From Atrina japonica (taxonomy: Eukaryota; Mollusca; Bivalvia; Pterioida; Pinnidae), in contig BROG01000540.1 of assembly GCA_030159075.1 (NCBI GenBank), positions 209,501-273,500 of the forward strand: DNA of 64,000 nt, written 5' to 3'. Positions within the stretch are counted from its first letter, which is position 1. Each line of letters opens with the position of its first letter. The notes below the pieces were generated by a model that made no database searches, had not been told where the DNA came from, and saw only the letters and a list, made by a program, of their open reading frames with translations. Position numbers and translations under genes: made by a program. Shown piece by piece: positions 2,507-27,132 of the stretch.

Positions 2507-2651
2507 CAGCAATTATTCCGTAAAATACTAACATAAATTCCAGGTTTGGCGAAAAAGGTATAAATGTCAAACCAATACTGCTAAGCAAACCACCAAGTAG
2601 TGCTACTTTTCTATATGACATCTTCCTCATCAGGTAGCTTGTGATTGGACC
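2507..2651 (-). CDS. Transporter exon 2: TM3-TM4 with the MFS loop
   Basis: Flanked by a TTTTCAG acceptor and a GTAAGT donor, and open in one frame only across the junction. It has the basic loop YLMRKMSYRK between helices, typical of MFS carriers, followed by VALLGGLLSSIGLTF. Phase 1 at both ends. Confidence 0.72.
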
Positions 2652-5600
2652 TGAAAACATAAAATATGATAGCTGTAAACTGCTCAGTCTATACGGATCA
2701 GCATCAATCAAGATCTGAAATTACCATTTATTCAATACTCAAACTCAACTGTCAACATCTTTTGAATACAGAAAGAGGCTCTTTCTTTGCCATTAAGTGT
2801 CCAGGATTAAAAGTGAAAAGTAATAGATATAAATTCTTTAGATATCTTATAAAATTTTAGGTTACTGTACCGGATAAACATTTTTCAAAAATCATAGAAA
2901 CTCACATAATTGATAACTGATGTAAGTCCATTGTCCAGTACCAACTTACTGGCAAAAACTGTAAGACCACTCACATCTTAAAAGTAACCTCTAGGGGTAG
3001 TGTTAAAATGGGTCATTTCTAACAGTGTAAGATCTTTGTGCTATTGTTATTGCTGCAACATGTGCAAGTCCAGCCAAGCTTTAGGTGATCACATGTGCCA
3101 TACCTACTATTCTAGTTTAAAATGAGCTTTAGTTTTAAAAGTCCATGACCACTTAAATCGACCAACGTCAAGTATCGTAAAAAGTTCTCTGATTCACACA
3201 ATAAATAATTTAAAGACATACTTATCAAAACTAGTGCACACATGCACTGCAATTAGTCAGAAAATGATAAAAACAACATGATTCAAACATCCCTAATTAG
3301 AAATCGCACAGGTACCATTCACTGCTGCTACACCGATACGGAAAGTATGTAAAACATGAATGTACATGCATGTCAAATTGTGGGAAGTATTTCACCAAAA
3401 ACTGCAATTATTCATTTCCCAAAATAAAAATATTGCATTTCTATACATATAAGTTTAACACTTTCAACTTAAAAAGATAAAACCAAAAGAAAGTATTGGT
3501 ATTCTCTGACCAGTTTCAGACTCCATGATTGAACAAAAGCGTTAGCCTTGACAGATTGAGGTTTCTTTAGTGGAAATTCAAAGAAGGGCTGCAAATTATT
3601 AATTTGTTTTCAGTTTCATTTCCTTCCTCAAAGCATTTCAACGATCTGTTTCTGTTCCTAAACGCACAGCATTCTATCTCTTATTTTCCGCCCTTTGTGT
3701 TTTGTTTATTTGCTACCTGTATTGCAACATGTTTACATCTTTGTGGAATGTTGGTAAACTTGGACCCATCTGAATTCATACCCATCTCAACTCGTAGCCT
3801 CTTTGGCTAAGTCATGCCTATGGTTGATTGACTCGTGACCAAAACAATTGGAAGAGTCAATTGTTTTACTGATTTGTACACAATAACGTAGGGATTATGG
3901 TTACACTGATGACTTAGTTCTCAAGCACATAGAAAAACTACCCAAACTCGATCATTATTCTATGCAGGAATTAGGAATAACTGTTATGTTTATTTTTTAT
4001 TGTTCCATTCTGTTCAATTTTGTCAGAATAGTTGGTATTCATATCATGTGACCTCAACAGAATGTCGGGCAAGATCACTTCTGGTTTCGTAATATTTACA
4101 TTGAAAACATGTTGGAATTCTTTCTTGCAACGACTACAAGTGTTGTCACTTTCTTGAAGGCTGCTTTTCACATCTGGCATTTAGTGCTGCATGCCACATG
4201 TATCTAGATTCAATGTCATACATATAAAATAAAATGATTAACTGGAAGTGGTGCTGCCCACATTTTTCTCTGAAGTTGCATACTATTATGACAAACCATA
4301 ACGGAAAGGATCAACTCCAAACAGTTCTTTTGACCCATATCATAGGAAAAATTACCTGTTTTCTGGATATAGAAAAGGCATGGAAATATTTTTTCATCAT
4401 AGAAAAATAACCCAGGTATATTTTCTACCATAGAAAATAACCCAAGTATATTTTTACAATAGAAAAATAAAATATATTCAACAAATAATGACCATGTCGT
4501 ACAAGTTTCATATGTGTTAGTAAGTTGAAATTATGGCTATATACATGGAAATTGCGTGGTGTTTGCAAACAATGCAATTTTATTTGCAAATTATGATATT
4601 TTCGATGGCATAAGAAGATGTTTCTGTCAGTTTTATGCAATCATGTCAAGATAGAAGGATTTTCTTTCATTATACCTTTTTGACACACGCAATAGCAATC
4701 TTAGTAATAGTATATTCTTTAAATGTTCCTCTAAAACAACTACAATTGTACATGACAATTTTCTTTCCTGTCATATAAACAACTAAAAAATCAGAGTGAT
4801 TCCTAAATTGAACAGTAAACAAACAGTATACGGGGCCCCATCGTCATAAAACCACGGTCTGTAATCACTATGCTCTTTCCTACCTGTAGTTTCATGTATC
4901 CAGAGATCACTTGTGCATATTTTTTTATTCAAGAAGCCTTATCCAATGTGTGTAAACGGTGCTCTCAATCATCAACTAATAAGATTGAGACTTTTAAAGA
5001 ATTTCAGAATTCCAAACTGCATTATGCTAATTACCTAGTTGGTAAGTACATGAGTAACTTCATAATAATTCTACAATCAAACAGGCGATGGGCATGAGTG
5101 AGTTAATCAATGGCACGAGTCAGCTAAAACATGGGTACAAGTCAACCATTTTACTTAGATATGAGTTGTGATGGGTACAAGATGACCATATCCCATATGT
5201 CAAACTTATTCATCTGAGGTTGCCTTGAATATTATGCAACTCCGTTTGTATTTATTGTCGTTACGAGTAAAAATCATTTTTTGATCTTCAAACTCAAATT
5301 ACTAGAAAACAGAGAATCACTTAGAAGTATATTAATGGGAAGATAATAACTTTATATAAGCATTTTGCAAAGCATATTATCATTTAAAACAAAATTTACA
5401 ACCTTGCTGAGCGTAAACCACCGGTCATGGACCTTTAAGGCTCATTCATAAAACCTGTGCCAAGCACCTTGTAAATTGTCACTCTCTGTTTTAAGATGTA
5501 TGGCTAGTGTTCCAGCTAGAGGGTTTAGCAGGGTATCTTACCCTGCCCTGATTTTGCCTCCCCTATCCCAGTTGTGCCCCATCTTGCCCCAAAATTTCCC

Positions 5601-10194: not shown

Positions 10195-10424
10195 CTGCAC
10201 AGAAAAAATGATTGTATCACTTTGTGAAGGCAAGACTTCTGAAATAAATCCTGTCACATTTCTGATAGGATTATTTGAGAAATGCTTCATTAATTCACAC
10301 ATGTTACTGACATTTCACTGCTTAACTGTAAAAATCAATACACTACTTAAATGTTTAACCTTTTGACTTACTGAGTGAAAAAACAATAGAATTTTATAGG
10401 ATAATTTTCATTTCACATCCTTAC

Positions 10425-10498
10425 CTAAAACATGTAAAATATTATGACACATTATATCAATTTCCTCCTTGTTATCTCTGTAGTATGTAGCACCATCA
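10425..10498 (-). other. Candidate first or upstream exon of the transporter gene
   Basis: A 74-bp segment between an ATTTCAG acceptor and a GTAAGG donor. It is open in one frame with a coding-like composition (DGATYYRDNKEEIDIMCHNI), but joining it to the next candidate exon brings a stop in that frame. It is therefore either leader sequence or the end of another, unseen coding unit. Confidence 0.35.
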
Positions 10499-10509
10499 CT
10501 GAAATTACA

Positions 10510-11317
10510 GGTACAATGTATATATTGTAGTGTTGGGTAATGTATATACAATGTACATATTGTAGTGCTTGGTAATGTATGTACAATGTATATATTGTAG
10601 TGTTGGGTAATGTATATACAATGTACATATTGTAGTGCTGGGTAATGTATGTACCGGTACAATGTACATGTTGGAATGTTGGGTAATGTATATACAATGT
10701 ACATATTGTAGTGCTGGGTAATGTATGTACAATGTACATGTTGTAGTGCTGGGTAATGTATGTACAATGTACATATTGTAGTGCTGGGTAATGTATGTAC
10801 AATGTACATATTGTAGTGCTGGGTAATGTATGTACAATGTACATATTGTAGTGCTAATGTATGTACAATGTACATATTGTAGTGCTGGGTAATGTATGTA
10901 CAATGTACATATTGTAGTGCTGGGTAATGTATGTACAATGTACATATTGTAGTGCTGGGTAATGTATGTACAATGTACATGTTGTACAATGTATGTACAA
11001 TGTACATGTTGTAGTGTTGGGTAATGTATGTACAATGTACATGTGCTGGGTAATGTATGTACAATGTACATATTGTAGTGCTGGGTAATGTATGTAAAAT
11101 GTACATATTGTAGTGTTGGGTAATGTATGTACAATGTACATATTGTAGTGCTGGGTAATGTATGTACAATATACATGTTGGAATGTTGGGTAATGTATGT
11201 ACAATGTACATATTGTAGTGCTGGGTAATGTATGTACAATGTACATATTATAGTGCTGGGTAATGTACATGTATGTACAATGTACATATTGTAGTGCTGG
11301 GTAATGTATATACAATG
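10510..11317. repeat. Minisatellite, 35-bp unit, about 23 copies
   Basis: The unit is GTACAATGTACATATTGTAG followed by TGCTGGGTAATGTAT. Because 35 is not a multiple of 3 and the minus-strand unit lacks stops, all three minus frames stay open for hundreds of bases. This produces long repetitive open frames that are not genes. Some units are shortened (near 10855 and 10985). The array is interrupted by a transposon at 11318 and resumes at 12198. Confidence 0.95.
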
Positions 11318-12197
11318 CAGGGTTCACACTACTAAGTGCCATTTTTAAGTAAAATGCTAAAAATATATTATAAATTGGCTCAAAAATAATGTTTTGGCTA
11401 AATTTTTGCTCCAATAAAATCATTGGTAATTGTGTGACAATCTGCAGAAAATCAGTCCTACGGCAATATATCAGTAAAATACAGGTGAAAACTGATCTCT
11501 CCCTGCCATTTACAAGTAGATTGAGGACTAATTATGCAATTTGATAAGTACTAGTGTCAGCATTTGATTGTAAACTTCATCAGACACAGGGTTTACCTGG
11601 CCATTGTGTGGCACATGCAAGAGTTGACACAAGTATGCAAATTACATGTACAGGTCTACCAAGGTAAATTGGCACATGTTTACAAACACAACAAGTCTAA
11701 ATCAAATCAATACAAGGGTGACAAGCCACTTGTTGTCACAAAAATATTAGAGATTCAGCAATGCATGGAGTCCATGCAAGGCAATTATGTTTTACCTGTA
11801 CAACCTATTTTTGGTATCGTTTTTGGTTTTTGACTCTACCCGGATTTGCCACTTTACCTTGGTACACCTATAACTAAGTGAAATAAACAAATCAAATGGT
11901 GGAAGTCATACACATGGACTTCAATGAATTGTTGGCATGATTGGTTGTGTTGATTATGATGAGGGAGAACAAGTGACACCTTTAGCATATCCAAAGACAG
12001 CTATTGTGATTCATACAGGCAGTTATATAATACATGTATAGCAATGATGAAGAGATGGAATTACAGTTTTAAAATGTTATTAATAGCCTTGGATACTGGT
12101 TATTTATTAATTTTGCTCAATGCTACTTTATTTTGCTATAAAGATTTATTTTGCTAATTTTTTGGCCCATAAATTTGAAATCTTGGTGTGAACCCTG
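11318..12197. mobile_element. hAT-like non-autonomous transposon inside the minisatellite
   Basis: It begins CAGGGTTCACAC and ends GTGTGAACCCTG, a perfect 12-bp TIR. It is flanked by the direct repeat ACAATG (11312-11317 and 12198-12203), and the minisatellite continues on both sides. CAGGGTT ends are common in hAT elements, but these usually make 8-bp duplications and only 6 bases match here. No transposase frame is present. A second inverted pair inside (around 11655 and 11850, TCTACCAAGGTAAATTGGC and its partner) may be a smaller nested MITE. Confidence 0.75.
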
Positions 12198-13827: not shown

Positions 13828-14210
13828 AGTAGTTATAGGCAGCTCCATGGCACGGTTTTGAATTCGGCCGTTAGGGAACGCCGCCAGTGGCCTCTGATTG
13901 GTCAAATTAAAAACCGTGACATGAAGCCGCCTGTGACGTCATACCGGAAGTGAAGTCACATTGCCATGGTGACTGGAAGAAAGAGCAAATCGTTGCTGGA
14001 GGCGTGCCCATGACCGGAAGCGGAAGACGATGGGGCGTCCATCTTGAATAATGAGTCAATGAGAGCCTTCGTTACAAGAGGTCGGGATCACAAGATGTCA
14101 GATGCTAAAATACTTGTTGGGTTTTTCCAGTGTTTGGTTGGGATTGAATCTATTTTTAGAACCGAAAGTTAGGGTTTTTCGAGTTTTGGGGTGAGTGAGA
14201 TGAGATACTC
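13828..14210 (+). repeat. Outer element, left TIR
   Basis: It matches in reverse complement the region ending at 27132. It contains CRE-like TGACGTCA (13933), ETS-like ACCGGAAGTG, a GATTGG CCAAT-type box, and CCATCTTGAATAA close to a YY1 core. Similarity fades after the GAATCTATTTTTAGAACCGA stretch. Confidence 0.85.
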
Positions 14211-14302: not shown

Positions 14303-14810
14303 GGTAGTTAGGACTACCAGAACGTCATCAGAATACTGGCTTCTTATTGGTCAATTCAAACGGCGTGCCAGAGAGCCGCCTGTGACGTCATAACCGGAAG
14401 TGCGTCATACCGGAAGTGATGTCATGTTGACATGGCAATAAGGAGAGAGAGCCAATCGTTGAGCTTGGAGGCGTGTCTATGACTGGAAGTGGAATGTTGT
14501 GGCGGCGGTCATCTTGGATAAGGAGCCGATGAGAGCCTTTGTTACAAGAGGTCGGGGTCACGAGAGGTCACGTGAGTTCACGATAGGTCAACGGCTAGAG
14601 AAAGAAGTTGGGTTTTTCCAGTTTTGGACTGAGAGTGAATCTATTTTTAGAACCGAAACTTTGGGTTTTTCCAGGTTTGTGAAACTAGTAGTAGGTGTCG
14701 CCACCGTCGGTGAGAGTGGTGTATCATCAAGTGCGCAAGCGCGAGAAGCGGTAAGCCGAGCTCATAACCGCGAGTCAAGCTTGAACATGTTGTACTAAGG
14801 CTTGTAGAGT
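14303..14810 (+). repeat. Inner element, left TIR with a conserved open frame
   Basis: Reverse-complement match to 22619-23187. It contains TGACGTCA (14383-14390), two ACCGGAAGT ETS-like sites and a CATCTTGGATAA YY1-like core. An open frame (14499-14798, 99 residues) is preserved in the other arm. It starts at the YY1-like motif and includes KEPMRAFVTRGRGHERS and FFQFWTESESIFRTET. Whether it is translated is unknown; the TIR sequence may simply be free of stops. Confidence 0.75.
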
Positions 14811-14817
14811 GACGAGT

Positions 14818-15060
14818 ATGTACAAAGGGAGATCACTCTGTATAGCCTGTAGGGATGGGATAAAGGGGAGATCACTCTGTATAGCTTGTATGAGTAGGAC
14901 TAAAGTGAGATCAATCTGTATAGACTGTATAGGTGGAACAAAAGGGAGATCACTGTGTATAAACTCTATAGGTGACACATCACTCTGTATAGACTGTATA
15001 GGTGAAACAAAGGGAGATCACTCTGTATAGACTAAAGGGGTGGAACAAAAGGTGCGATGA
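14818..15060. repeat. Degenerate subterminal tandem repeat, about 40-43 bp unit
   Basis: Five to six copies built on GGGAGATCACTCTGTATAG plus a spacer GGTGGAACAAAA. One partial unit in inverted orientation lies at the matching place in the right arm (22636-22675), so it is part of the element's end structure. Confidence 0.8.
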
Positions 15061-15654: not shown

Positions 15655-15750
15655 AATTAAACACTCACCCAGAGGAATTTTTGTGACGATGTTGACTCTT
15701 CGAGCTTCGGATGCCAAATGAGCTCTCAGTAGTCTAACTGAACTTATTCT
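15655..15750 (-). repeat. Element arm repeat R (copy 1 of 4)
   Basis: A segment of about 90 bp with CACTCACCC at one end and GAGCTCTCA near the other. Related copies lie at 22145-22245 (+), 22325-22420 (+) and 24570-24650 (-). All share the series AACACTCACCC, TCAACATCGTC, CTTCGAGCTCCGGAT and GAGCTC. Confidence 0.7.
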
Positions 15751-15924
15751 CAAGTTTTTAATGTTACTATTTTTTAGAATTGACTCGTTTTGAATTTCTA
15801 TCTAATAAAATTTGATCAAGTAAAAGAAATAACTTACTTACTATAGGTTAGACGTACGACTATAGTATAACACATACAAAAACTGCATAGTTTCAGTTAA
15901 GGTTTCTTTTCGTGTAAGTTAGGT

Positions 15925-15940
15925 GGCCCTGAAAAGGGCC
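15925..15940 (-). terminator. Histone-type 3' stem-loop, gene at 15971-16192
   Basis: On the minus strand it reads GGCCCTTTTCAGGGCC: a perfect 6-bp stem and a UUUC loop, preceded by CCAAC and followed by ACCTAAC. A purine-rich CGAAAAGAAACC follows about 15 nt later, in the position of the histone downstream element. It lies 31 bases after the stop codon. Confidence 0.8.
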
Positions 15941-15970
15941 GTTGGTTTTGGGTTTTAAAAACCCTGTGCC

Positions 15971-16192
15971 TTAAAGGCACCGGCAGCTGACCATTTTCTT
16001 CTCTTCTGCAGCTGCTGCACTGGCCTCAGCTACACGGCACCATCTCTCCAAGCCGGCCTTCTGCTGTACAAAATACCCCCACTCTTGGGAGGCCGTCTTC
16101 AACTTGTCGATGACATGCTTTGGTTTACTTGCCCAAAACAGCGTGCTTTCAAGAAACATACTGCTTTGCTTTGTGGTCGTTGGTTGCGCCAT
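15971..16192 (-). CDS. Short unknown element gene A (73 aa) with a histone-type 3' end
   Basis: The start at 16190-16192 is chosen because a TATA box (CATATAAAAAG, plus-strand 16237-16247) lies about 45 bases upstream and the codon follows a short leader. The product is not recognised. It is 73 residues long, rich in Lys, Ala and Ser, with a Trp-containing middle (EWGYFVQQKAGLERWC), an alanine run (AEASAAAAEEKK) and a Cys-containing end. No signal peptide or membrane helix is evident. It diverges from gene B (16411) across a shared 218-bp promoter region. The stem-loop downstream replaces any visible AATAAA. It could be a small viral-type accessory protein; this is inference. Confidence 0.6.
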   Translation of the reverse strand: MAQPTTTKQSSMFLESTLFWASKPKHVIDKLKTASQEWGYFVQQKAGLERWCRVAEASAAAAEEKKMVSCRCL

Positions 16193-16236
16193 TTTGTCTT
16201 CTGGAATGAAGCGCAGTGAAATGAGACGCGCACGGC

Positions 16237-16247
16237 TTTTTATATGA
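16237..16247 (-). promoter_or_regulatory. TATA box of gene A
   Basis: Minus strand CATATAAAAAG, 45-55 bases upstream of the start codon. Confidence 0.6.
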
Positions 16248-16410
16248 GCAGTATAGCGCACGCGACGTACTCCGCCTCGTCAACTTTGACCTCTTTGATG
16301 ATTGGTCAATGCGTCGTTGGCAACGTGATTCCACCAATGAAAACGCCAAGAGTGATAGACGCCTAGGAGAAATCCGTCTAATAGTGATAAAAAATATAAA
16401 AAAGTCAAAC

Positions 16411-16590
16411 ATGGCGTATACTATGGAGTACACTATGGACCAAGAAAACGAACCTGTTCTAATCGAGCCTGTATATGATACTAGGCAGATTATTCGTGAT
16501 ACTAAAGAGAAGTTACGAAAGATTGATAAGAACTTTCATCAGGGAAAAGAAGATGTTCGCTTGAGGCGAATTGTACTTGCGGTTTGGTAG
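16411..16590 (+). CDS. Short unknown element gene B (59 aa or longer), possibly frameshifted
   Basis: Starts at 16411 and reads MAYTMEYTMDQENEPVLIEP, then a basic, charged helix-like segment (KEKLRKIDKNFHQGKEDVR), and stops at 16588-16590. Just before the stop another frame becomes open to a TGA near 16657 and encodes a very basic stretch (REEKKRKQ) that resembles a natural continuation. A one-base frameshift or assembly indel around 16565-16575 is therefore likely. It is followed by a stem-loop of the histone type at 16683. No family was recognised. It lies divergent to gene A. Confidence 0.5.
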   Translation: MAYTMEYTMDQENEPVLIEPVYDTRQIIRDTKEKLRKIDKNFHQGKEDVRLRRIVLAVW

Positions 16591-16682
16591 AGAAGAGAAA
16601 AAACGTAAGCAGATGGACGAGAAGTGTTTGCCGTTTAACAAGAGATTCTGTGTATGAATCATGGCAGATATGACAAAACAAC

Positions 16683-16698
16683 GGTCCTTTTCAGGATC
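16683..16698 (+). terminator. Histone-type 3' stem-loop of gene B
   Basis: GGTCCTTTTCAGGATC: a 6-bp stem with one G.U pair, UUUC loop, CAAC before and ACTT after. GAGAAGAAACC follows about 15 nt downstream. The stem sequence differs from its relatives yet still pairs, as expected under selection for structure. Confidence 0.7.
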
Positions 16699-16747
16699 AC
16701 TTATATCTTACGAGAAGAAACCATAAACTGAATGTGCAGTGTATACA

Positions 16748-16835
16748 ATAAAATGAGTTATAGGGTTTATGAGACAATAAAATGTCTTATAGGGTTTATG
16801 AGACAATAATATGAGCTGTAGGGTTTATGAGAAGG
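16748..16835. repeat. Tandem repeat, 29-bp unit, 3 copies
   Basis: The unit contains ATAAAATG, then TTATAGGGTTTATGAGACA. Confidence 0.9.
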
Positions 16836-16904
16836 AGTGTTTTATAGAGTAGTAGGTGTAGCATATCTCAATATAGTTTAGATTACTTTTCTAATACGAT
16901 GGGT

Positions 16905-16920
16905 GGCCCTGAAAAAGGCC
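16905..16920 (-). terminator. Histone-type 3' stem-loop of gene C
   Basis: Minus strand GGCCTTTTTCAGGGCC: a 6-bp stem with one G.U pair, UUUC loop, CCAAC before and ACCC after. TAGAAAAG follows at the downstream-element position. Confidence 0.75.
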
Positions 16921-16933
16921 GTTGGTTAGGTTA

Positions 16934-17293
16934 CTAATATTGACAGTAACATCTTCTCTTTTTCAGAGGTAAACGTCGTTCTGCTTCCAGTAGACCATCT
17001 GTCTTTCTCTTGATCGTCATGATGATCGGTATCTGTAGTTGACGAAAACTAGCTCTAATCTGTTTTCTAGTACAAACATACTGAGCTGACAAATAGTCTA
17101 AGCACTGTTGGTACTGTCGGTCGAGTTGATCTCTGACTTTCTGTGAGGTTTGCTGATGTTTCAGTTGCCTCATCTCAGATTGAGTTTCGTCAGTAGACTC
17201 TGATAGTAACGATTACACTTCATTGTACGCCACTTGGTCTTCTGTTGTAACAGAATAATTCTGTAAATAGCTTCTGTATAGATACTCTCCATT
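16934..17293 (-). pseudogene. Short unknown element gene C, basic/coiled-coil protein, frame-broken
   Basis: The intact 3' part (16934-17173, 79 residues from its first ATG) is rich in Gln, Arg and Lys (QKVRDQLDRQYQQC) and ends in a basic cluster (LPLKKRRC) that could be a nuclear localisation signal. Upstream, the same frame stays open apart from a stop near 17213. A second frame with an ATG at 17291-17293 runs 40 codons into the same place. This suggests one gene broken by a small indel near 17200-17220. The histone-type stem-loop lies 13 bases after the stop. A CRE palindrome at 17357 sits between this gene and gene D. Function unknown. Confidence 0.5.
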
Positions 17294-17356
17294 TTGGTTT
17301 TTGTTTTTCACTAAGCGATGTTCAACAAAAAGTAGAAGAAACGCTCACGCGACGTG

Positions 17357-17364
17357 TGACGTCA
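17357..17364. promoter_or_regulatory. CRE/ATF site between divergent genes C and D
   Basis: TGACGTCA inside the longer palindrome GTGTGACGTCACAC, midway between a minus-strand and a plus-strand gene. The same octamer occurs in the element's TIRs and before gene E. Confidence 0.55.
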
Positions 17365-17408
17365 CACACTGCTGAGTATGCCTAAGAGTCTATTGTCATT
17401 GCTTGATC

Positions 17409-17603
17409 ATGGCTGACTGTGTAAACATGTGGGGCGAAGTACAAGAAAAAGAAGAATGGAAGATATGTGCCGATACAGTGGGAAGAAAGGTGGGCTGATT
17501 ATCGAATATCGACGAATGGATTGAGCTCGTGAAGTCTGATAAAAGAAAAAGAGAAAGACGGCAGAGAAAACGGAGAAAATGCTTTTTATGCCATGGCATA
17601 TAA
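17409..17603 (+). pseudogene. Short unknown element gene D, frame-broken, histone-type 3' end
   Basis: ATG at 17409 opens 29 codons (MADCVNMWGEVQEKEEWK at the start) to a TGA at 17496. A second frame then continues to a TAA at 17601 with a strongly basic end (KRKRERRQRKRRKCFLC). The combination suggests one gene of about 60-65 residues with an indel near 17490. A decayed relative lies at 25617-25760 in the same orientation and ends in the same GAAATGCTTTTTATG stretch. Sixteen bases after the stop lies a perfect stem-loop. Function unknown; the basic tail suggests nucleic-acid binding. Confidence 0.5.
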
Positions 17604-17619
17604 AACCTAAAACACAAAC

Positions 17620-17635
17620 GGCCCTTTTCAGGGCC
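17620..17635 (+). terminator. Histone-type 3' stem-loop of gene D
   Basis: GGCCCTTTTCAGGGCC with perfect 6-bp stem and UUUC loop, ACAAAC before, ACCTAAC after, then ACAAAAAGAAACC at the downstream-element position. This is the copy closest to the animal histone consensus. Confidence 0.85.
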
Positions 17636-18300
17636 ACCTAACTTTTACAAAAAGAAACCTATGACTGATTAGAGCAGTAATAAAACATAGATCCTTTGTA
17701 TACCCTTAGTCTCTCTGTATCTCTTATTTTCTCTGTATCTCTTCTACTCTAAGTGTTACACGATTACTCTTGGTATCCTTCTACTCATAGATTTGTTAGT
17801 GGTGTTTTTACACCAGATCACTCCTTTGTGTCTACCTTGTAGATACTAGAGCAGGACTCTAAGTGTACACCTTATATTCAATAGGTTTAAACTCTAAGTG
17901 TACTCTAAACGTGTACACCTTATACCCAGACATAAATACACAAACACCAGAACATTTTTTAATAAGTTTAATGCCCCGCTAAAAACTTTTTAGATAGTCG
18001 ACAGAGGAGTAGGGCCGTCCCTCTGTGACTATGTACAATACATAAGAATGAACTATGAAATCACTGATTAACTTTGAGAACATTAACTTTGAGAACACTG
18101 ATTAACTTTTTTTAAAACGTTCATCACTATGAATGCAACACGCAAACAAAACTTTTAGTCACTTTGTCTCACTACTACGGTTGATCTTGCCCATACAGCA
18201 CGGATCAAAAAGAACGTTAGCGTTTGTCCTAGATCGGTCGGTTCGGATTCCTTGACGCTGTGACAATAAACGTATTTACATAATAACAGTACTAAAAAAA
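17636..18300. other. Spacer shared with the outer element (copy at 25775-26215)
   Basis: No gene is seen. The block GTTTAATGCCCCGCTAAA and the following AGAGGA(T/G)TAG..GTCC region (17940-18030) recur at 26100-26180 in the same orientation. These show that both nested elements share this segment. An AACTTTGAGAAC pair lies at 18067-18105. Confidence 0.5.
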
Positions 18301-18921
18301 TCACTGCTGTTCGGTTTCCACTTTCACTTTCTTGGTGGCTTTGCCTCCCTTCTTGAGCATCAAGTTGAGTTTACGTTTGACTCCTGTTGATGTCTGTTCG
18401 GGACATTCATAAGCCCAATGACCTGACTGATGACATTTATAACACTGGTCCGATTGACGAGATCGATTTTCTACTTTGTTCTAAGGTTCTACTCTTACTG
18501 ATGTTGTTGTTGTTGTTGCCGTCCCGTTATTCTTCGGACATCTAGGAGACCAATGTCCAATTTCACCACACATGAAACAAGGATGAGTCTGTGGGGAAGG
18601 CTTATATTCGTACCCCATATACGATGTTCTGACTTCTGGCTGTAGTTTATCCTTCAATTCTGTTAGACTAGCTGTAATAGTCGTGAGTTCTTCCCTCATT
18701 TTCTGTAATGTGGATAGCAAGGAATCACGTAACATTCCCTGTGTCGCATCATTTTCGTGTTTTTCTTCCAACTGGTCTAAAGTTTTGAGAACTTCATCAA
18801 ACTCATCACCCCCTTCTATGTACGGTGTACAATTAGGTGAATAATTTGGGTGCGTCTGAGACAAGCCTGGATAACTCATGTTGATGACTGATTCAAATGA
18901 TGTTTGGTCACTACACTTCAC
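18301..18921 (-). pseudogene. Two-zinc-knuckle (CCHC) protein, interrupted by one in-frame TAG
   Basis: The frame from 18921 down to a stop at 18301-18303 is about 206 codons long and is broken only by a TAG at 18481-18483. The N-terminal half is acidic and probably coiled-coil (EVLKTLDQLEEKHENDATQG). Knuckle 1 is CFMCGEIGHWSPRC, before the TAG. Knuckle 2 is CYKCHQSGHWAYEC, after it. Both fit C-X2-C-X4-H-X4-C. A lysine-rich tail follows (KKGGKATKKVKVE). CCHC knuckles bind single-stranded nucleic acid, as in retroviral nucleocapsids and several cellular proteins. The origin of the gene inside a Polinton-like element is unclear. No stem-loop was seen after it. Readthrough of the TAG cannot be excluded, but a plain nonsense mutation is simpler. 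Confidence 0.65.
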
Positions 18922-18959
18922 TTTACTTTATACCCGTTCTTCTTATTCTATATTTAGAC

Positions 18960-19521
18960 TCGTTCCCGTCAGGCACTTGTAGGTCCCCAGAAGGGAGGAT
19001 CCACACAGGGTTTTCTTTATATTACCAGTTGACTGAAAGCACAATCTTTAGACCAATGTCGATGTTCTGTATAAGCATTATCGGTCCATTCCCAAATCTT
19101 TTAAACAGATGCCACAAGAAAAACACTGAACGTGGTCACTGTTCCCTAAATACACAAATCCTGCTCTGGCTAATTCTGTCTGTTTAGGTCCCGGTAGCTA
19201 TTTTGGCCAATGATCTTTAAACGTCAGGTACCTGGATTCATACGTACAAAAATTAGGTAAGGCTAAAGGTATTCTTAATTCCTGATGAAATGATAACCCT
19301 CTGACGGTAGCAGGTCTTAGTTTAAAAGTGGTCACACCTTGTCTCCTTTCTGTAGGTGGAGTCCTTGTCACTTCTATCAGATTGACTCTCGGCACACTAT
19401 CCACTTCAACCCGATGAGCTCGTGGTAAACTATCCACTTCTACCCGATGGGTTCGTGGTACACTATCCATCATGTCTCGGTTCATGGGAGCACTATCCGT
19501 GACGGTCTGACTAGCATCCAT
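18960..19521 (-). pseudogene. BIR-domain (IAP-type) protein, broken by a stop and a frameshift
   Basis: The start at 19519-19521 (MDASQTVTDSAP) follows a TATA box at 19592-19600. The N-terminal part has an internal repeat (HRVEVDSVPR, HRVEVDSLPR). The C-terminal part is a recognisable BIR zinc-binding fold: the RYLTFKDHWP entry, an in-frame TAG at about 19195-19197, then LARAGFVYLGNSDHVQCFSC and, after a frame change near 19090, the EHRHWSKDC end with the His and Cys ligands in place. BIR proteins inhibit caspases or other death signals. They occur in baculoviruses, malacoherpesviruses and several large or mid-sized animal DNA viruses, and are greatly expanded in bivalves. This copy is not intact as read. 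Confidence 0.7.
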
Positions 19522-19591
19522 CGTCGATGAAAATATGTTCTTTCCATCGTGTCTGAGAGTGAATTGTCCCTGATGTGGATTATCACTCCCT

Positions 19592-19600
19592 TTTTATAAG
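19592..19600 (-). promoter_or_regulatory. TATA box of the BIR gene
   Basis: Minus strand CTTATAAAAAGG, about 75 bases upstream of the start codon. Confidence 0.6.
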
Positions 19601-19634
19601 GTCCATAAAATATATTTTTAGATCAGACCAAAAA

Positions 19635-21066
19635 TCATATTTTTTTGTCCTGAAACACAAATTGTATCATCGGTACGTCTACACAATGGCCAAAAGGATC
19701 CCATGCTACTTGTCGTTGTTCTTTATGTACATGATACCATTGTCGTAGAAACATTAAAATATCATGAGGTTTTTCTTCCTGTTCTACTTTTCGTGGTCGT
19801 CCCCTACTTCTTTTCACTCCTTCCCTCTGTCCTTCTTCTTCTTCTCTTCGTTCTTTTGTTCTCTCTACGGATACTTTGCGTGGACGTCCCCTCTTTCTTT
19901 TCATCGTGTTGACGGGAACACAGGGCGACGGTGCAAAACATCGAAAGCAACGCTGAGGGCATCGGTGATCTTCTACATGATCATAACCCACGTCACAACG
20001 GTCACAAAAGTAATTACATTCCAAGAGGCCAGGCATAGATACTATATAATCGTAATGGTGATCATCGTATAAGACGTGAATGGGGGCCCCCGGATCCTAC
20101 ACCGCTATACAGTACATTTAATGTCAATCGTTTTTCGTTGGTATTCAGTTCGTATATTTTCAATCGGTAGTGTGGTAACAACACAGTCTGAAAACGTTGC
20201 CATTCTTCAGGTCCACTCTCTTGCTGGGGATCACATCCAGCTTGTTGCATTAAGGCATGAGCTTCTCGTCGTTGAAGAGTATGTCTACTTGCATCTCCTA
20301 AAATCAAAGTTTTCCAATATCGTTGTCAGTTTTTGTACTTGTTTCCATCTCCAAGTCCTTCATTGTCAGGTTTCTGACAATGAAAACGACCAACTACAAT
20401 AGCACGAGTTAAACAGGTTTTGTCTTTATTCTTGATCTGTATCAAACTTTTTTTCTTGTTCACAAACACTTTTTATCAACACTGAGATGATATTTTCGTT
20501 TTCCAACCCCGCTACCTACAGGTCGTATGACATGGATCACTGACAGGGTGGTAGACCCATCTTCGATTCTAAAGTTTTCATTACTCTGTTGTACTTTCTC
20601 AATTTTCTCCATGAGTAGATCAGCATTCAGGTCTTTAGCACCCAAAAATTCTACCCACACCTCACTTTTTAAGATGGATGATGTATATTGACTCGCATCT
20701 TATCTCGATCTTCACACTGTAGTTTGTTCTTAATAGAAGTCAACATATGATCTAGTACCTCTGATACCAAGTGTATGGCATCTTTAGAGAAATGTTTAAA
20801 TTTGACTTGGTACACATTCGAAGACGTTTTAAATTTACATGATTTACGCTCACTCAGAGTGTCTACTTCATAGTAATCACTATAATCGGGGAGTTGTCTG
20901 TTTGCATTAAATCCATCACCTTGTTGATCTCTCTGGTGAGCCTGACTTTGACTTCTCGCCTGTTCTTGTCTTTCATTTTACAATAAATGAAAGTTCGGTA
21001 AATTAGCCATTCCGTGTGTATGCTTCCGTTGTCAAATCTAAAATGAAGTACGGTAACTGTAGACAT
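19635..21066 (-). pseudogene. B-family DNA polymerase, N-terminal region only (Polinton/adintovirus type), multiply frame-broken
   Basis: Pieces in different minus-strand frames line up in the order of the N-terminal region of metazoan Polinton-like polymerases. First, a start near 21066 and a segment to 20863. Next, a block about 20860-20690. Then 20660-20460 with VQQSNENF. Then KKKSLIQIKNKDKTCLTRAI (about 20400-20450), 20307-20062, and 20036-19635 with the Cys/His cluster NYFCDRCDVGYDHVEDHRCP. After that the protein departs from the family: two AT-hooks (KRKRGRPRK and KRSRGRPRK) and a short unique end replace the exonuclease and polymerase domains. No DTDS-type catalytic motif is found. At least three frameshifts and a TGA near 20345 interrupt it. 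A protein-primed replication role is known for the family, but this copy cannot replicate DNA as it stands. Confidence 0.7.
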
Positions 21067-21242
21067 GTATTTATAATAAAAAAAAGAAAACAAACGAAGT
21101 ATCATCAAATATATATAATGTGTTATATTCTAGTCTTTTATGTTTCATAGGTTTATAAAACTAGAATTTATTGTATATCGTTTTATTTTCATATAGAATT
21201 AGAAATACTAAACACTAGTGACAGTATCTGTCTTAAAAACAG

Positions 21243-21490
21243 GTGACCAGATGTCTAGACGCAGATGTCTAGAAGTAGATGTCTAGACAGAAAAATCGTC
21301 AACAACAGATGGCCAGATGCCAAGTGTCAAAAACAGGTGTTCAGATGCCAAGTGTCAAAAATGTCAAAAACAGGTGGCCAGATGCCAAGTGTCAAAAACA
21401 GGTGGCCAGATGCCAAGTGTCAAAAACAGGTGACCAGATGCCAAGTGTCAAAAATGTCAAAAACAGGTGGCCAGATGTCTAGACGCAAAT
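21243..21490. repeat. Tandem repeat, 28-bp unit plus related short units
   Basis: Copies of CAAAAACAGGTGGCCAGATG followed by CCAAGTGT, flanked by AGATGTCTAGA units. It lies just upstream of gene E and could contribute to its promoter. Confidence 0.9.
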
Positions 21491-21516
21491 GTTCAGACGG
21501 GAAAAAAATCAATACG

Positions 21517-21539
21517 TGACGTCATTAATTCTATATAAG
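21517..21539 (+). promoter_or_regulatory. CRE plus TATA promoter of gene E
   Basis: TGACGTCA at 21517-21524 and TATATAAG at 21532-21539. A GTCTCGGTATTAGTT initiator-like stretch and the ATG follow at 21576. The TATA and GTCTCGGTAT parts are conserved in the duplicate gene at 25268. Confidence 0.7.
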
Positions 21540-21575
21540 CTAGTACTGTCTGAGTCTCGGTATTAGTTTCTCATC

Positions 21576-21881
21576 ATGGATAACTCATCCGACATGGAAA
21601 TGCAACCCGAGGAGAGAAACATACGAATAATTCTTACACTGAGGACACGTATTGTAGTAAGGCCACGCAGCCCGATCAATTCTGGTAGGACCCCTGCGAC
21701 ACCGACTACACAACACCAGGAACCACCTAGACCTGACCCTTCACTTCCAGTACCTGTACAATATGTACTAGCTCAGGAAGCATTAGTCAATCTTCGACAA
21801 CATAAGGCCGAGATAAATCGATTGATGATAGAAAAAGAAAGAGAAGTTCGACGTTGGCGACGTCTACTCGACAGATATTAG
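21576..21881 (+). CDS. Unknown element gene E (101 aa), intact, histone-type 3' end
   Basis: The only clearly intact gene of the element. It has an acidic start (MDNSSDMEMQPEERNIRIIL), an arginine-rich stretch (RTRIVVRPR), a proline-rich linker and a predicted amphipathic C-terminal helix (LVNLRQHKAEINRLMIEKER) ending in WRRLLDRY. The layout, a disordered basic linker plus a terminal coiled-coil helix, suggests a small DNA-binding or capsid-associated accessory protein; this is inference and no family was recognised. A paralogue with the same start, linker and helix lies inverted at 24923-25268. The promoter (CRE, TATA) and the 3' stem-loop at 21918 are both in place, 35 bases after the stop. 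Confidence 0.7.
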   Translation: MDNSSDMEMQPEERNIRIILTLRTRIVVRPRSPINSGRTPATPTTQHQEPPRPDPSLPVPVQYVLAQEALVNLRQHKAEINRLMIEKEREVRRWRRLLDRY

Positions 21882-21917
21882 AGTCTCTCTCTTATTCAGC
21901 TTTCCGGGGCAATCAAC

Positions 21918-21933
21918 GGCCCTTTTAAGGGCC
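21918..21933 (+). terminator. Histone-type 3' stem-loop of gene E
   Basis: GGCCCTTTTAAGGGCC: perfect 6-bp stem, UUUA loop, ATCAAC before and ACTCAAC after, then CGAAATGAAACC downstream. The loop's fourth base differs from the usual C, which the histone consensus tolerates. Confidence 0.8.
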
Positions 21934-22144
21934 ACTCAACTTATTCGAAATGAAACCTTAACTAAAGGTATGCAGGGTTTGTGTTATTCTGTAGCGGCGA
22001 ATTTAAAAAATAGTGTAGTGACTACACACTACTTATCCGCGTATATTCAACATTGAATTTTATTTGTATTTTTGTGTTTTTGTTATGATGTATTCACTTC
22101 ATTAGATGAAAGTCTAAATATAGTAAGTCATGTGACTAGAGAGA

Positions 22145-22420
22145 GGTTCAGTTCACCCTGTGAAAACTCATTTGAGATCCGAAGCTCGAGGTGTTAACAT
22201 CATAAGAAAAAACCACTACTATCAGCATAGGGTGAGTGTTTCATTTTTTATAAGATAGGACAAGATTATTTTCCATGCATTAAAAATGATAAATATATCA
22301 GAAAAAAGTTACATGACTAGAGTATAGGTTCAGTTAGACCTTTGAGAGCTCATTTGCGATCCGGAGCTCGAAGAGTCAACATCGTCAGAAAACCACTACC
22401 AGCATAGGGTGAGTGTTTGG
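22145..22420 (+). repeat. Element arm repeat R, copies 2 and 3 in tandem
   Basis: Two copies (22145-22245 and 22325-22420) start at GGTTCAGTT and end at AGCATAGGGTGAGTGTTT. Inverted relatives lie at 15655 and 24570. Confidence 0.8.
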
Positions 22421-22618: not shown

Positions 22619-23187
22619 TTATGATAGTTCAGATTCATACAAGGTATACAGAGTGATCTCCCTTTGTACATACTCTACAAGTCTTTGTTCAAGCTTGAGT
22701 CGGCCTACCGCTTCTCGCGCTTGCGCTCTTGATGATACACCACTCTCACCGACTGTGGCGACACCTACTACTGGTTTCACAAACCTGGAAAAAAAAGTTT
22801 CGGTTCTAAAAATAGATTCACTCTCAGTCCAAAACTGGAAAAATCTAACTTCTTTCTCTAGCCGTTGACCTCTCGTGAACTCAAGTGACCTCTCGTGACC
22901 CCGACCTCTTGTAACGAAGGCACTCATTGGCTCCTTATCCAAGATGGCCACCTCCACAACCTTCCACTTCCGGTCATAGACACGCCTACAACCTCAACGA
23001 TTGGCTCTTTCACCTTATTGCAATGACAACATGACCTCACTTTCGGTTTGACACACTTCCGATTATGACGTCACAGGCGGCTCTCTGGCACGCCATTTGA
23101 ATTTACCAATCAGAAGCCAGCATTCTGATGACGTCATCAGTGGCGGTTAAATTCAAAAGGCGTGCCAGAGAGCTGCCTATAACTACT
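22619..23187 (-). repeat. Inner element, right TIR with conserved open frame
   Basis: Inverted copy of 14303-14810. The minus-strand open frame 22619-22957 (112 residues) matches that of the left arm, with mainly substitutions. It contains TGACGTCA (23065-23072), CCAAGATGGCC, CACTTCCGGTC and CGATTGGCTC motifs. Confidence 0.85.
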
Positions 23188-23273
23188 TATAATGCTAACA
23201 GGAGATGGGTTTTCACAGTTTTGGGTCTAGAGTGAATCTACATCATCTTTGATCAGTTAGGGTTTAGTTTAAA

Positions 23274-23889
23274 CGGTTACAGCCCGGTAGCCCGAAGGCC
23301 CGTTACTCCGATGGTCTGATACTCCGAAAGCTCGATGCTCCGAAAACCCGTTACTCCGAAGGCCCGTTACTCCGAAAACCCGTTACTCCGGAAAGATGCA
23401 CATAATGTTCAATTTCTGAAGAGTGACTAAGCTGTTATGGTTCACTGTTAGGACCATATGCAACATGTAAAATACTTTTTGAAATAAACCTTCGCCCAGG
23501 AAGGGAATCGGTGCAATATTTCTGTGCTGATGGGTCTATAAAAAAAATTAAAGGACATTTCAATATGTAATCTTCATTTTTATTTGTTAAAAATGGAGGT
23601 GATTCCTGCAAGGAGAAAAGTAAATTTTCCTGTAATTCAGGACGCGTTGGATCGTTTTAAAATAAGCCAAAGTCTGCGTCACATAAATCACATTTAAACT
23701 ACAGAGATGTCATATTTTGTACTGTCCACAATGTCCAACAGCAGCGGATTCAGAACTAAAGTGCCTCAGAAGAGGGAGGAGGGAGTAACATCTCAAACCC
23801 CATAAAATTGGGCAGAAACGGCAGAGTGCAGGTTTTTCGGAGTAATGGGCTTTCGGAGTAACCGGCCTTCGCGTAAGTGGGCTGTCCCC
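23274..23889. mobile_element. Transposon with 8-bp TSD and TTACTCCGAA end repeats
   Basis: Flanked by the perfect direct repeat AGTTTAAA (23266-23273 and 23890-23897). The left end carries several units of CCCGTTACTCCGAA. The right end carries the inverted unit TTCGGAGTAATGGGC. The tips (GGTTACAGCCC and, inverted, GGGGACAGCCC) are similar. An 8-bp duplication fits hAT-like or related transposases. No transposase is encoded. It is inserted in the arm of the large element, so it is younger than that arm. Confidence 0.75.
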
Positions 23890-23897
23890 AGTTTAAA

Positions 23898-24429
23898 ATA
23901 TTTTATTGCTTTTAATGCAGTTGGATTGAGCACAGTTAAAATATCGCAACTTATTGAAGCCCTCTCCACAACAAATATACAAATTATATATAGCGACAGT
24001 ATAATCAGATACATGTATTAAATATAAAATAAATTCAAAAAGAGAAAGAAAGACATAGAGAGGTGAAATATAAGCAAATTTAGCAGATCTATGTAATATT
24101 CACATTATTTGTTATAACAATTAAGATAAATCCAACAACCGCGCCCGATTCTTGTTCTAACAATCCATTCCAATACCCTCAATAGCAAAAAGGTCCATGA
24201 AAACACATTCCTTGAAAGGTTTTTCTTCTCTTTCCGATCCTTTCAGGTAATCTAACTAAGTACCAGGTAGACACTCCTTACAAGTATTTATGTTACTTAC
24301 TATATTTTAAAACTGACACACCAAATTACTTAAACAACGTTATGAACGTAGGGGTTGATAGAGAAAGGATGGTAGATAGATAAAAAAAAGAACAGAACGA
24401 GAAAAATGTACCTGTTACAGAGACTGGCG
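23898..24429. other. Outer-element interior, no gene seen
   Basis: AT-rich and without a recognisable frame. It lies between the inserted transposon and an inverted duplicate arm. Confidence 0.4.
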
Positions 24430-24884
24430 TATCTGGGATATTCCCCTGATTGCATGATTAAGTTGTAAGTAATAAAAACCTTATTAACATTGCTAGCTCA
24501 CTAACTTTTTCTGAGATATTGAGATTTACTATTTCATAAGATAAAAATCTAGGCCTATGTATTTAAATTTCAAACACTCACCCAGATAATTTTTCTGACT
24601 CTTCGGGCTGGATTCCACATGAGCTTTCAGAGACCTAATTAAAACTATATTCTAGTTTTTAAAGTTACAGGACTTTTTTTTACCAATAGTGTTGCATTCT
24701 ATTTATAGACCTAATCAAACTTTTTTGTTTGATATTCTTTGTAATCATTCATTTAAAAAGAATACTAGTGAATGTTAACATAACAAAGTAACCTATAATA
24801 TTTTAGACTTACCACTACAGTATAACACAACATACACACAAAAACTGCATACTTTCAGTTAAGATTTCTTTTCAAATAAGACGG

Positions 24885-24900
24885 GTGGTCCTCATTGCTC
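24885..24900 (-). terminator. Decayed histone-type stem-loop of the gene E duplicate
   Basis: Flanking sequence (GGACCACCCGTCTTATTTGA and GAAAAGAAATC) aligns with the intact stem-loops, but the stem no longer pairs. It marks the position in a dead copy. Confidence 0.5.
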
Positions 24901-24922
24901 CGAAAAGCTGAGTAGTGGAGAC

Positions 24923-25268
24923 TAGCATCTGTTGAGTAGACGTCGCCAACGAATTTCTCTTTCCTTCTCTACCAACAGCCGATTAATCTCAGTCTTGTGT
25001 TGTCGAAGATTGGCTAATGCTTCCTGAGCCAATACGTATTTACAGATGCTGGGTGTGGAGGTTCAGGTCTAGGCAATGAAAGTCTCTGGTGTTGTGTAGT
25101 AGGTGTTGGTGAAGATGGTCTAGTAGGTAATGGTGGGGTCCTACCAGAATCTGTTGGTCTGCGTCGCAACACTACAATACGTCTCCTCCGTGTAAGAATG
25201 ATTCTTATGTTTCTCCTCTCATTTTCATGTTGCGTATCAATGTCGGATGGATCTTCAGAGTTATCCAT
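24923..25268 (-). pseudogene. Paralogue of gene E, frameshifted
   Basis: Starts MDNSEDPSDIDTQHENE and has the same NIRIILT core, arginine run and Pro/Thr linker as gene E. A frameshift near 25035 separates the C-terminal helix (LANLRQHKTEINRLL), which continues in another frame to a TAG at 24923-24925. The promoter TATATAAG and GTCTCGGTAT block is retained upstream (about 25290-25315). Confidence 0.7.
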
Positions 25269-25494
25269 GATGAACTTATACCGAGACTTAGATAGTACTA
25301 CTAGTAGCTTATATAGAGTCTATGACATACAATGTTCACTCTGTGCCTACTTCAACCTCGTAGACCTAGGTTCTCGGACACTCAGCTAACCGGTGCGTGG
25401 GCCGCGTAAAATGCAGCTAGCCCGGTGTGATATCACTAACCCGGTGGAAACAAGCGACATTTCATGTACTTGTGATATGAGCCTCAGATACCAA

Positions 25495-25499
<5 letters not shown>

Positions 25500-25533
<34 letters not shown>
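25500..25533. repeat. (CT)n microsatellite
   Basis: About 17 CT dinucleotides. Confidence 0.95.
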
Positions 25534-25537
<4 letters not shown>

Positions 25538-25616
25538 CTTTTCTTTCCCTTCAGTTCCAATTCTTTATATTATTTTGCCGTTGGTTTTACTCATAAACAA
25601 CAACAAAAAAGAAAAA

Positions 25617-25779
25617 ATGGGTGGTCTGTACATATATAGTGGGAAGAAAGGTGGGAAATCAGATCAACATCGACGAATGGGTCCAGTTGTTGAAAGTGGA
25701 AACCAGAATTTGACAAAGACGACGGACCAAACGGATGAAATGCTTTTTATGGTATCCGAAATACTCCCTTTTCAGGGTC
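25617..25779 (+). pseudogene. Decayed paralogue of gene D with a degraded stem-loop
   Basis: Shares the GGGAAGAAAGGTGGG, CGACGAATGG and GAAATGCTTTTTATGG blocks with gene D but contains no comparable frame. The stem-loop position 25764-25779 reads CTCCCTTTTCAGGGTC, where only the inner four pairs remain. GTCACCTAACG and CGAAAAGAAAC still follow. Confidence 0.6.
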
Positions 25780-26389
25780 ACCTAACGTTTACGAAAAGAA
25801 ACTTAAGACTGTTTATAGTAACAGTAGTTTTGTAGTCTCTGTATCAGCATTCTAATAAACAGACGTATTTCCTTTGTACCCATACTCTCTGTATCCCTTA
25901 TTTATTCTCTCTGTATGACTTTCTTATACTTTCTGTATCCCGCAAGCCTAATAGAGTTGTGTTACACACTTCTGTTTTATGTCTTCTAGTAAGTCGTACG
26001 ACTTTATTCCTTTGTGTCACCGTATCTGTGTAGATTCATACTTATGGATACTCTTTTTACACCTCAATAACCAAGATACAATACCCAAACACAAGGAAAA
26101 TTTTCAACAAGTTTAATACCCCGCTAAAGAGAGCTTTTTGAAATAGTCTCCAGAGGATTAGTGTCGTCCCCCTGTGTCTATATATAATGTATACGAATGA
26201 ACATTGTTTTGCATGTTTCTCCAAACTCTTTCAAATTATAACTTTGAAACACATATTACATATAACAGTCTAGAGAAACATACAAAACAGTACGTTTTAC
26301 TTTACTGATACGTATGAGATTGCCTGCATGGCAATTAGCCAATGGACGATGTTTAGCACTTTTATAACCTATTGAACTTTAAAATCTGA

Positions 26390-26660
26390 AGCTAGAACAG
26401 TGAACAACTCCGTACTTTACAACTTTGTAACTTTTGAACTTTGTCACTTTGAGACTCCACAACTTTCATTCGTAGATCATTGCAAAATTTACAACTTTGC
26501 TTCATCACTTTGAAACAGAATGTATAAACGTTACAACTTTGAAATTAAAAACGTTACAAACTTCACAACTTTGAATGTTAAGTAGTTACAAACTTCATCA
26601 AATAGAAACTTAGAACGTAGTAAACTTTGCAAACTTTGAAACATGAGAACGTTGAGACAT
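26390..26660 (-). repeat. Subterminal array of AACTTTG motifs (right)
   Basis: About fifteen AACTTTG/AACTTCA-type motifs with ACGTTACAAC spacers. Mirror image of the CAAAGTT array at 15285-15600. Confidence 0.65.
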
Positions 26661-26749: not shown

Positions 26750-27132
26750 CAATTAGACTGGATTCCATGTCTAGCCATGAAACTGGATATCCCATGATTC
26801 CATATGCAAGATGGCGGTCTCCATATACTCTGGGTTTTACTTCACACCCTGGACCTGTCGTGATCCCGACCTCTTTTAACGAAGGCTCTCAATGGCTCAT
26901 TATCCAAGATGGCCACCCACACCTTTCTGCTTCCGGTCATGGACACGCCTCCCCCGAGTTAAACAATTGGCTTTTTCTACCAGTCGCCATGGCAATGTGT
27001 CCTCACTTCCGTGTATGACATCATAGGCGACTCCATGGCACGGTTTTGAGTTTGACTAATCAGAAGCCAATATGATGGCGCCTCCTAGCGACCAAAATTC
27101 AAAACCGTGCCATGGAGCTGCCTATAACTACT
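26750..27132 (-). repeat. Outer element, right TIR
   Basis: Inverted copy of 13828-14210, extended inwards by a CATGGGATATCCAGTTTCA block that also occurs near 15145. It contains the CCAAGATGGCC and CACTTCC motifs. Its tip, CCTATAACTACT, mirrors the left tip. Confidence 0.85.

Follow-up and report, generated by a model that had tools for sequence, protein, structure and literature searches.

A 64,000-nucleotide (nt) stretch of the genome of the bivalve Atrina japonica (GenBank assembly GCA_030159075.1, contig BROG01000540.1, positions 209,501 to 273,500; hereafter the window) contains a copy of a virus-like mobile element with five short genes, h1 to h5. On the evidence of the DNA sequence, these genes very probably carry 3ʹ ends of the type found on the host's replication-dependent histone mRNAs, and the element would thus use the SLBP- and U7-dependent histone processing route of its host. 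The evidence lies in the signals themselves, their position after the genes, their match to three histone genes of the same species and the way they have been kept in a diverged lineage.

Hairpins and downstream boxes behind five short genes

A sequence-only reading of the window had placed five 16-nt hairpins after the ends of five different genes, and all five were found at those places and on those strands (Table 1). Like the 3ʹ ends of metazoan replication-dependent histone mRNAs, they have a 6-bp stem, a 4-nt loop and a CAA-like flank; unlike those ends, they follow five genes that belong to a mobile element and are not histone genes. The expectation that they would fit the Rfam histone 3ʹ stem-loop model (RF00032) was borne out by scores far above chance, with four of the five hairpins (h1, h3, h4, and h5) over the gathering score of 34 bits at E-values of 2e-6 to 1e-8. 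The remaining stem, that of h2, is GGTCCT/AGGACC in seven other copies, where it scores 34.4–35.7 bits, above the gathering score. No sixth match to RF00032 was obtained at E up to 5 anywhere in the window. A 6-bp stem of any kind starting with G and closed by a TTTN loop occurs at 13 sites in the window, and AC stands directly after the stem only in h1–h5.

The purine-rich downstream element that the same reading had described is present after all five hairpins, but the spacing is 13 nt and not "about 15 nt". The hexamers at this distance are GAAAAG, GAGAAG, GAAAAG, AAAAAG, and GAAATG for h1–h5, respectively, those of h2, h4, and h5 being one letter each away from GAAAAG. Its statement that stem changes keep pairing by G.U was right in part: one-sided changes of this kind were seen, but one pair of h2 had changed on both sides, from C-G to U-A.

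Each hairpin lies downstream of a short gene, on the coding strand of that gene, in all five cases. The distance from stop codon to hairpin is 30 nt (h1), 13 nt (h3), and 36 nt (h5) in the window, and 26–45 nt (h2) and 9–20 nt (h4) in copies with longer frames. The genes h1/h2 and h3/h4 form two divergent pairs, each with a common upstream region, and TATA-like boxes lie upstream of h1, h2, and h5; the names CCAAT, TATA-like and palindromic TGACGTCA site are what we take these upstream motifs to be. The coding parts are unlike one another, yet the genes share a common 3ʹ end, and behind the larger genes of the element (PolB, BIR, and CCHC) there is no match to RF00032. In line with the claim that histone coding sequence is absent, no histone family was among the Pfam matches of the open reading frames (ORFs) scanned, a set of 27 distinct ORFs in which many represent one gene in different copies and short ORFs are covered in part. 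The h1 product has no Pfam family above the cut-off, and none of the 5 candidates of a protein search with h5 scored at E up to 10. Coding constraint is suggested for h5 and h3 only, because the pairwise ratios of nonsynonymous to synonymous substitutions (dN/dS) were 0.31 for h5 and 0.38 for h3 (3 copies).

Host histone genes and copies across the genome

When the element was compared with histone genes of the same species, layout, flanks, and the 13-nt spacing agreed for three genes: an H1 gene (L113, identical to L060; PF00538, E 4e-21), an H2A gene (L111; PF00125), and an H3-like gene (L114), the classes of the latter two being assigned by eye. The H1 and H2A genes have the stem GGCCCTTTTAAGGGCC, with the same letters as the h5 stem, followed by ACCCAAA. 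The H3-like gene has the stem GGCCGTTTTCACGGCC (GGCCGT/ACGGCC), in which six pairs are kept by change on both sides, followed by ACCTAAA. GAAAAG stands 13 nt past the stem in all three genes alike, and the element resembles them in its ACC(C/T)A-like flank and its purine box 13 nt on. The box of the H3-like gene (contig C1968:17700-18200) reads GAAAAGATACC, which is close to the boxes of the element. The RNA-binding domain of a host SLBP (PF15247) was found in two pieces on one contig, with 53.7 and 38.6 bits. A core-histone search of the whole assembly gave only 12 matches, so tandem core histone genes seem to be absent from it.

Across the 832 Mb of the assembly, a strict pattern consisting of GGCCCTTTTMAGGGCCAC, 9–12 nt, and GAAAAG had 724 matches (a raw count, the matches not being classed one by one), compared with 0 for the reversed control. 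Together with the E-values of the four higher-scoring hairpins, this excludes chance. Among the pattern places listed, an h1/h3/h4 triplet recurs with spacings of about 1.0 and 0.74 kb, and several pairs, recognizable from their letters as h4 and h5, are separated by about 8.85 kb, compared with 4.3 kb in the window. The genome-wide search with RF00032 gave 75 scored places from 155611 first-look candidates, 72 of them over the cut-off. Upstream sequence was inspected at 60 of the 75 in sets of 20 and 40, two further places being the window's own, and a single one of the 60 was a histone gene, namely H1 (L060). Besides H1, the first set holds 19 places: at 16 of them the sequence before the hairpin matches the element, one (L063) has an h5-like peptide recognized by eye, and at two (L067 and L068) the element match begins only at the hairpin. 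In the second set, the sequence before the hairpin matches the element at 35 places, in some cases for a short length; a peptide resembling h5 by eye, with no DNA match, was seen at 4, and the hairpin of L107 was missed by the pattern. An origin of the hairpins as host histone pseudogenes was rejected, given the lack of any histone family among the Pfam matches of the ORFs scanned and the one histone gene among the 60 places inspected. Scanning IMG/VR for the hairpin with a longer flank returned nothing, and a shorter pattern returned four matches, none of which was RF00032-positive at the gathering score.

Most of the other copies examined also have the hairpins, in line with the sequence-only reading. 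Eight left parts of the element were picked by h5, and thus independently of h1–h4, and searched with RF00032 at E up to 0.01. Hairpins h1–h4 are all present in seven of them (28 hairpins, 26 above the gathering score and two at 30.5 bits); the eighth has h1 only and is without the h3–h4 part. Across the window and these seven left parts, minority letters amounted to 0–2.3% in hairpins and 0–1.1% in boxes, compared with 4.75% overall. At the h1 locus they were 18% in the coding region, 1.6% in the hairpin, 0% in the box, and 8.3% in the flank past the box. For h5, 20 close copies were found with a query containing the hairpin, and 19 of these have the exact stem; the Rfam model recovered the h5 hairpin in 14 of 15 longer fetches and in one of one further fetch (L040).

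The main evidence of constraint, as we read it, is a diverged h5-like lineage in which hairpin and box stand out from a drifting untranslated region (UTR). The query peptide for this lineage was taken from an RF00032 match (L083), but the copies themselves were identified solely through their protein match; of 606 candidates, 150 were scored, and 40 whose match reached the query end were hand-picked down the ranking. The hairpin, starting 26–33 nt past the end of the protein match, was exact in 25 of the 40, had at most one mismatch in 32, and at most three in 39 (two of the 39 keep three pairs only); 35 combined at most two mismatches with at least five pairs. Mean pairwise identity, calculated over 39 of the 40 rows with L135 excluded (no hairpin within 3 mismatches), was 0.892 for the hairpin and 0.882 for the box, compared with 0.512 for UTR positions −20 to −6 and 0.501 for +46 to +60. 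Several copies have decayed stems, as expected for dead copies. The identities of five deep h5 paralogues were not used, those loci having been found via their hairpins.

Proposed mechanism and competing explanations

If the five genes carry host-type histone 3ʹ ends, the stem-loop with its ACC(C/T)A-like end would serve as an SLBP site, and the purine box would sit where the U7 small nuclear RNA (snRNA) pairs. We infer that RNA polymerase II transcripts would be cut past the stem-loop by the host's SLBP/U7 machinery, that they would have no poly(A), and that they would accumulate in S phase, with small, often basic proteins being made while the host cell replicates its DNA. This suggests that the element ties the expression of these genes to the DNA replication phase of the host. 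The likely benefit would be one of timing, as the owner of a protein-primed polymerase may want its small proteins during DNA synthesis.

Several findings weigh against this interpretation, and some of them fit other explanations. A(A/T)TAAA signals occur 43–48 nt past the hairpins of h2 and h4, and 162 nt past that of h1, as would be expected if a captured histone 3ʹ end now acted mainly as an SLBP-binding regulatory element, in stability, translation, nuclear export, or SLBP titration, on transcripts polyadenylated downstream; the more than 700 strict genomic copies could indeed titrate SLBP if transcribed. The host H1 gene has such a signal 44 nt on, the same distance as after h2 and h4. 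We consider this explanation unlikely, since A(A/T)TAAA is lacking from the 300 nt downstream of h3 and of h5, and since, in the diverged lineage, the flank and the fixed-spacing box show about the same conservation as the hairpin, although a role in SLBP binding alone would need neither. Conservation in that lineage continues to about +45 (identity 0.793 from +30 to +45), and the conserved tract is therefore not the hairpin and box alone. This extension past the box, and the fact that the 3ʹ ends of h1 and h5 are mutual inverted copies inside the element ends, would suit a tract that acts as DNA, for example in recombination, replication, or packaging, as a site dispersed along the element, its histone likeness being a relic of origin. 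Such a role is very improbable, since in the window the tract follows genes in their coding direction whichever strand they lie on, and in view of its location just past the reading frame in the diverged lineage and of the host spacing; given strand, position, and spacing, a palindrome acting only as DNA is unlikely.

Among close copies the case for constraint is weaker. The 40 scored copies of the window's lineage, the window itself aside, are 94–95% alike, and in 20 of them the h5 hairpin shows no clear reduction in variability, and the box even less so (minority letters: hairpin 3.75%, box 9.55%, coding 4.61%, and UTR 4.31%). The coding regions of h2 and h4, with 2.0–2.2% minority letters, are as constant as the hairpins of h1–h4. 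Close copies alone do not show constraint, because coding region and UTR are about as constant as hairpin and box, and the hairpins might accordingly be non-functional remnants that arrived once and are alike only through the youth of the copies. The second lineage, with its UTR at about 51% identity and its hairpin and box near 89%, and the retention of the same 3ʹ end by genes with unlike coding parts make this scarcely credible.

Further points concern the genes and the host. Purifying selection was not shown by dN/dS for h4 (0.67, 5 copies) or h2 (1.6, 4 copies, few changes), and the broken frames of h2, h4, and PolB mark the window copy as decayed, intact h2 and h4 existing elsewhere. A formal count of covariation was weak; it covered 16 hand-picked distinct hairpins, all keeping six pairs, with a five-pair one omitted and the H3-like host stem absent, and it was not used as support because it was weak and its rows were hand-picked. 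Three of six histone-fold stretches (L112, L115, and L116) had no hairpin in the 321–583 nt downstream that were fetched. The host U7 snRNA was not found with RF00066 among the 65 of 236992 candidates scored, and a U7 pattern search gave 33 matches compared with 74 for the reversed control, none of the 12 inspected being convincing. In a second, decayed relative within the window (24434-26574), which has h4- and h5-like genes, the hairpins are damaged and the downstream boxes still readable. On balance, we hold to the interpretation that the five short genes have host-type histone 3ʹ ends.

The element, its relatives and the meaning of its 3ʹ ends

Judging by the relatives of its polymerase, which include oyster proteins and a coral adintovirus PolB, the element is virus-like, mobile, and related to polintons and adintoviruses; it measures about 13 kb when undeleted and is present in many genomic copies. 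Among the best 120 of 2653 matches, PolB showed 49–57% identity to named proteins of oysters, with the query part fully covered, and 45% identity over 85% to the coral adintovirus PolB, the top two matches having 90 and 86% identity; one Saccostrea prediction in this set fuses BIR, PolB, and PF13920, which we take to be a RING family. The terminal inverted repeats (14322-14856 and 22633-23134) are 87% identical, and a target-site duplication was not established.

The window copy is evidently an internally deleted member of the family. Of 16 other genomic places (L025–L040), 15 align to the left and to the right of position 19904 and carry between these parts the approximately 4.3 kb missing from the window copy, and the sixteenth (L035) has no alignment around 19904. 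In L027, this stretch holds PolB (PF03175, E 6e-49, a 1150-aa ORF) and a 352-aa ORF (1977-3032(-)); the latter is without a Pfam family and also occurs in L037. A BIR-domain ORF (PF00653, E 1e-21) adjoins these two in L027, as does an AT-hook ORF. Matches to PolB, BIR, AT-hook, or two-knuckle CCHC were obtained in L032, L036, L037, L038, and L040 too, two CCHC knuckles being seen in L036. Scans of IMG/VR with the AT-hook piece and with PolB gave no relatives, none of the 104 candidates of a protein search with the AT-hook piece scored at E up to 1, and PHROGs gave nothing useful.

Table 1. Positions in the window of the element's genes, hairpins, downstream boxes, and ends (SL, stem-loop; aa, amino acids; motif names in the shared regions presumed)
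Feature	Position	Strand	Details
Left terminal inverted repeat	14322-14856	+	outermost end seen on the right missing here
h1 downstream box	15901-15911	-	GAAAAGAAACC; starts 13 nt after the SL
h1 SL	15925-15940	-	GGCCCT-TTTC-AGGGCC; RF00032 match 15899-15945(-), 40.2 bits
h1 gene	15971-16192	-	73 aa in window copy; about 75–80 aa in other copies
h1/h2 shared region	16193-16410		between divergent genes; CCAAT motifs, TATA-like boxes on both sides
h2 gene	16411-16590	+	frame stops early in window copy; 83–89 aa in five other copies
h2 SL	16683-16698	+	GGTCCT-TTTC-AGGATC (one G.U pair); RF00032 match 16678-16722(+), 23.9 bits, E 0.027, below gathering score
h2 downstream box	16712-16722	+	GAGAAGAAACC
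h3 downstream box	16881-16891	-	GAAAAGTAATC
h3 SL	16905-16920	-	GGCCTT-TTTC-AGGGCC; RF00032 match 16880-16925(-), 35.0 bits
h3 gene	16934-17173	-	79-aa ORF in window; 96 aa in three other copies
h3/h4 shared region	17310-17408		between divergent genes; palindromic TGACGTCA site
h4 gene	17409-17600	+	frame broken in window copy; 64 aa in five other copies
h4 SL	17620-17635	+	GGCCCT-TTTC-AGGGCC; RF00032 match 17615-17660(+), 41.2 bits
h4 downstream box	17649-17659	+	AAAAAGAAACC
Zinc-knuckle (CCHC) gene	18300-18900	-	limits approximate, frame broken; PF00098
Region matching 206-aa BIR-domain ORF of other copies	19010-19620	-	limits approximate; PF00653
AT-hook gene region	19638-19904	-	PF02178
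Internal-deletion junction	19898-19904		about 4.3 kb lost; elsewhere most of the PolB gene and the 352-aa ORF
Protein-primed DNA polymerase B (PolB) gene, remaining 5ʹ part	19904-21000	-	limits approximate, broken; PF03175 in other copies
h5 gene	21576-21881	+	101 aa; intact in 15 of 20 copies
h5 SL	21918-21933	+	GGCCCT-TTTA-AGGGCC; RF00032 match 21913-21959(+), 36.1 bits
h5 downstream box	21947-21957	+	GAAATGAAACC
Right terminal inverted repeat	22633-23187	-	end palindrome 23070-23183

Self-complementary palindromes were seen at three element ends (13832-13937, 23070-23183, and 27023-27125), as if these ends fold into hairpins. The decayed relative has its ends at 13828-14188 and 26852-27132, and the window copy lies within or beside it. 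Repeats of about 80–100 nt near both ends (15663-15755(-), 22140-22240(+), and 22316-22414(+)) point outwards from the element body and terminate, by eye, in a splice-donor-like GGGTGAGTG. Repeats of 16 nt (CCCGTTACTCCGAAAA-like) occupy 23265-23393 and 23835-23900, with an inverted match further on, and a stretch resembling them by eye splits a damaged hairpin near 24885-24903. The window also has a long tandem array of 35-nt repeats (10406-11339) and a weak reverse transcriptase match at 36791-37519(-) (PF00078, E 0.005, below the cut-off), which is probably a separate retroelement.

Parvoviruses have palindromic ends, and the element is like them in this respect. With bidnaviruses it shares a PolB, which these viruses carry according to PMC11071296. 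Unlike both groups, the element gave no Pfam match to an NS1 or SF3 helicase in the ORFs scanned. Like Polintons/Mavericks (in the definition given in PMC11071308) and adintoviruses, it has a protein-primed PolB (PF03175), inverted repeats, and many genomic copies. Its BIR, CCHC, and AT-hook genes set it apart from them, as do the five genes with histone-type ends and the lack of a Pfam match for a retroviral-type integrase in the ORFs scanned. The same ORFs gave no Pfam match for a major or minor capsid protein, packaging ATPase, or Ulp1 protease.

Histone-type 3ʹ ends are, to our knowledge, regarded as nearly private to replication-dependent histone genes. The literature searched, with most subscription journals outside its coverage, describes no mobile element or virus that has them. 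The copies found across the assembly probably belong to a widely distributed class of virus-like elements that has brought a whole set of genes into the histone mRNA programme of the host, with SLBP/U7 processing in S phase, and this element, rather than the host, probably holds most of the histone-type stem-loops in the assembly. If so, matches to RF00032 in such genomes would be no marker of histone genes, and the element would offer a natural set of non-histone substrates for testing SLBP and U7 requirements. The histone 3ʹ-end pathway would be open to hijack, here by an element with five such ends, host spacing, and hundreds of copies, and this would explain how the genes of an element may be timed to DNA replication when the machinery for it is not encoded by the element itself.

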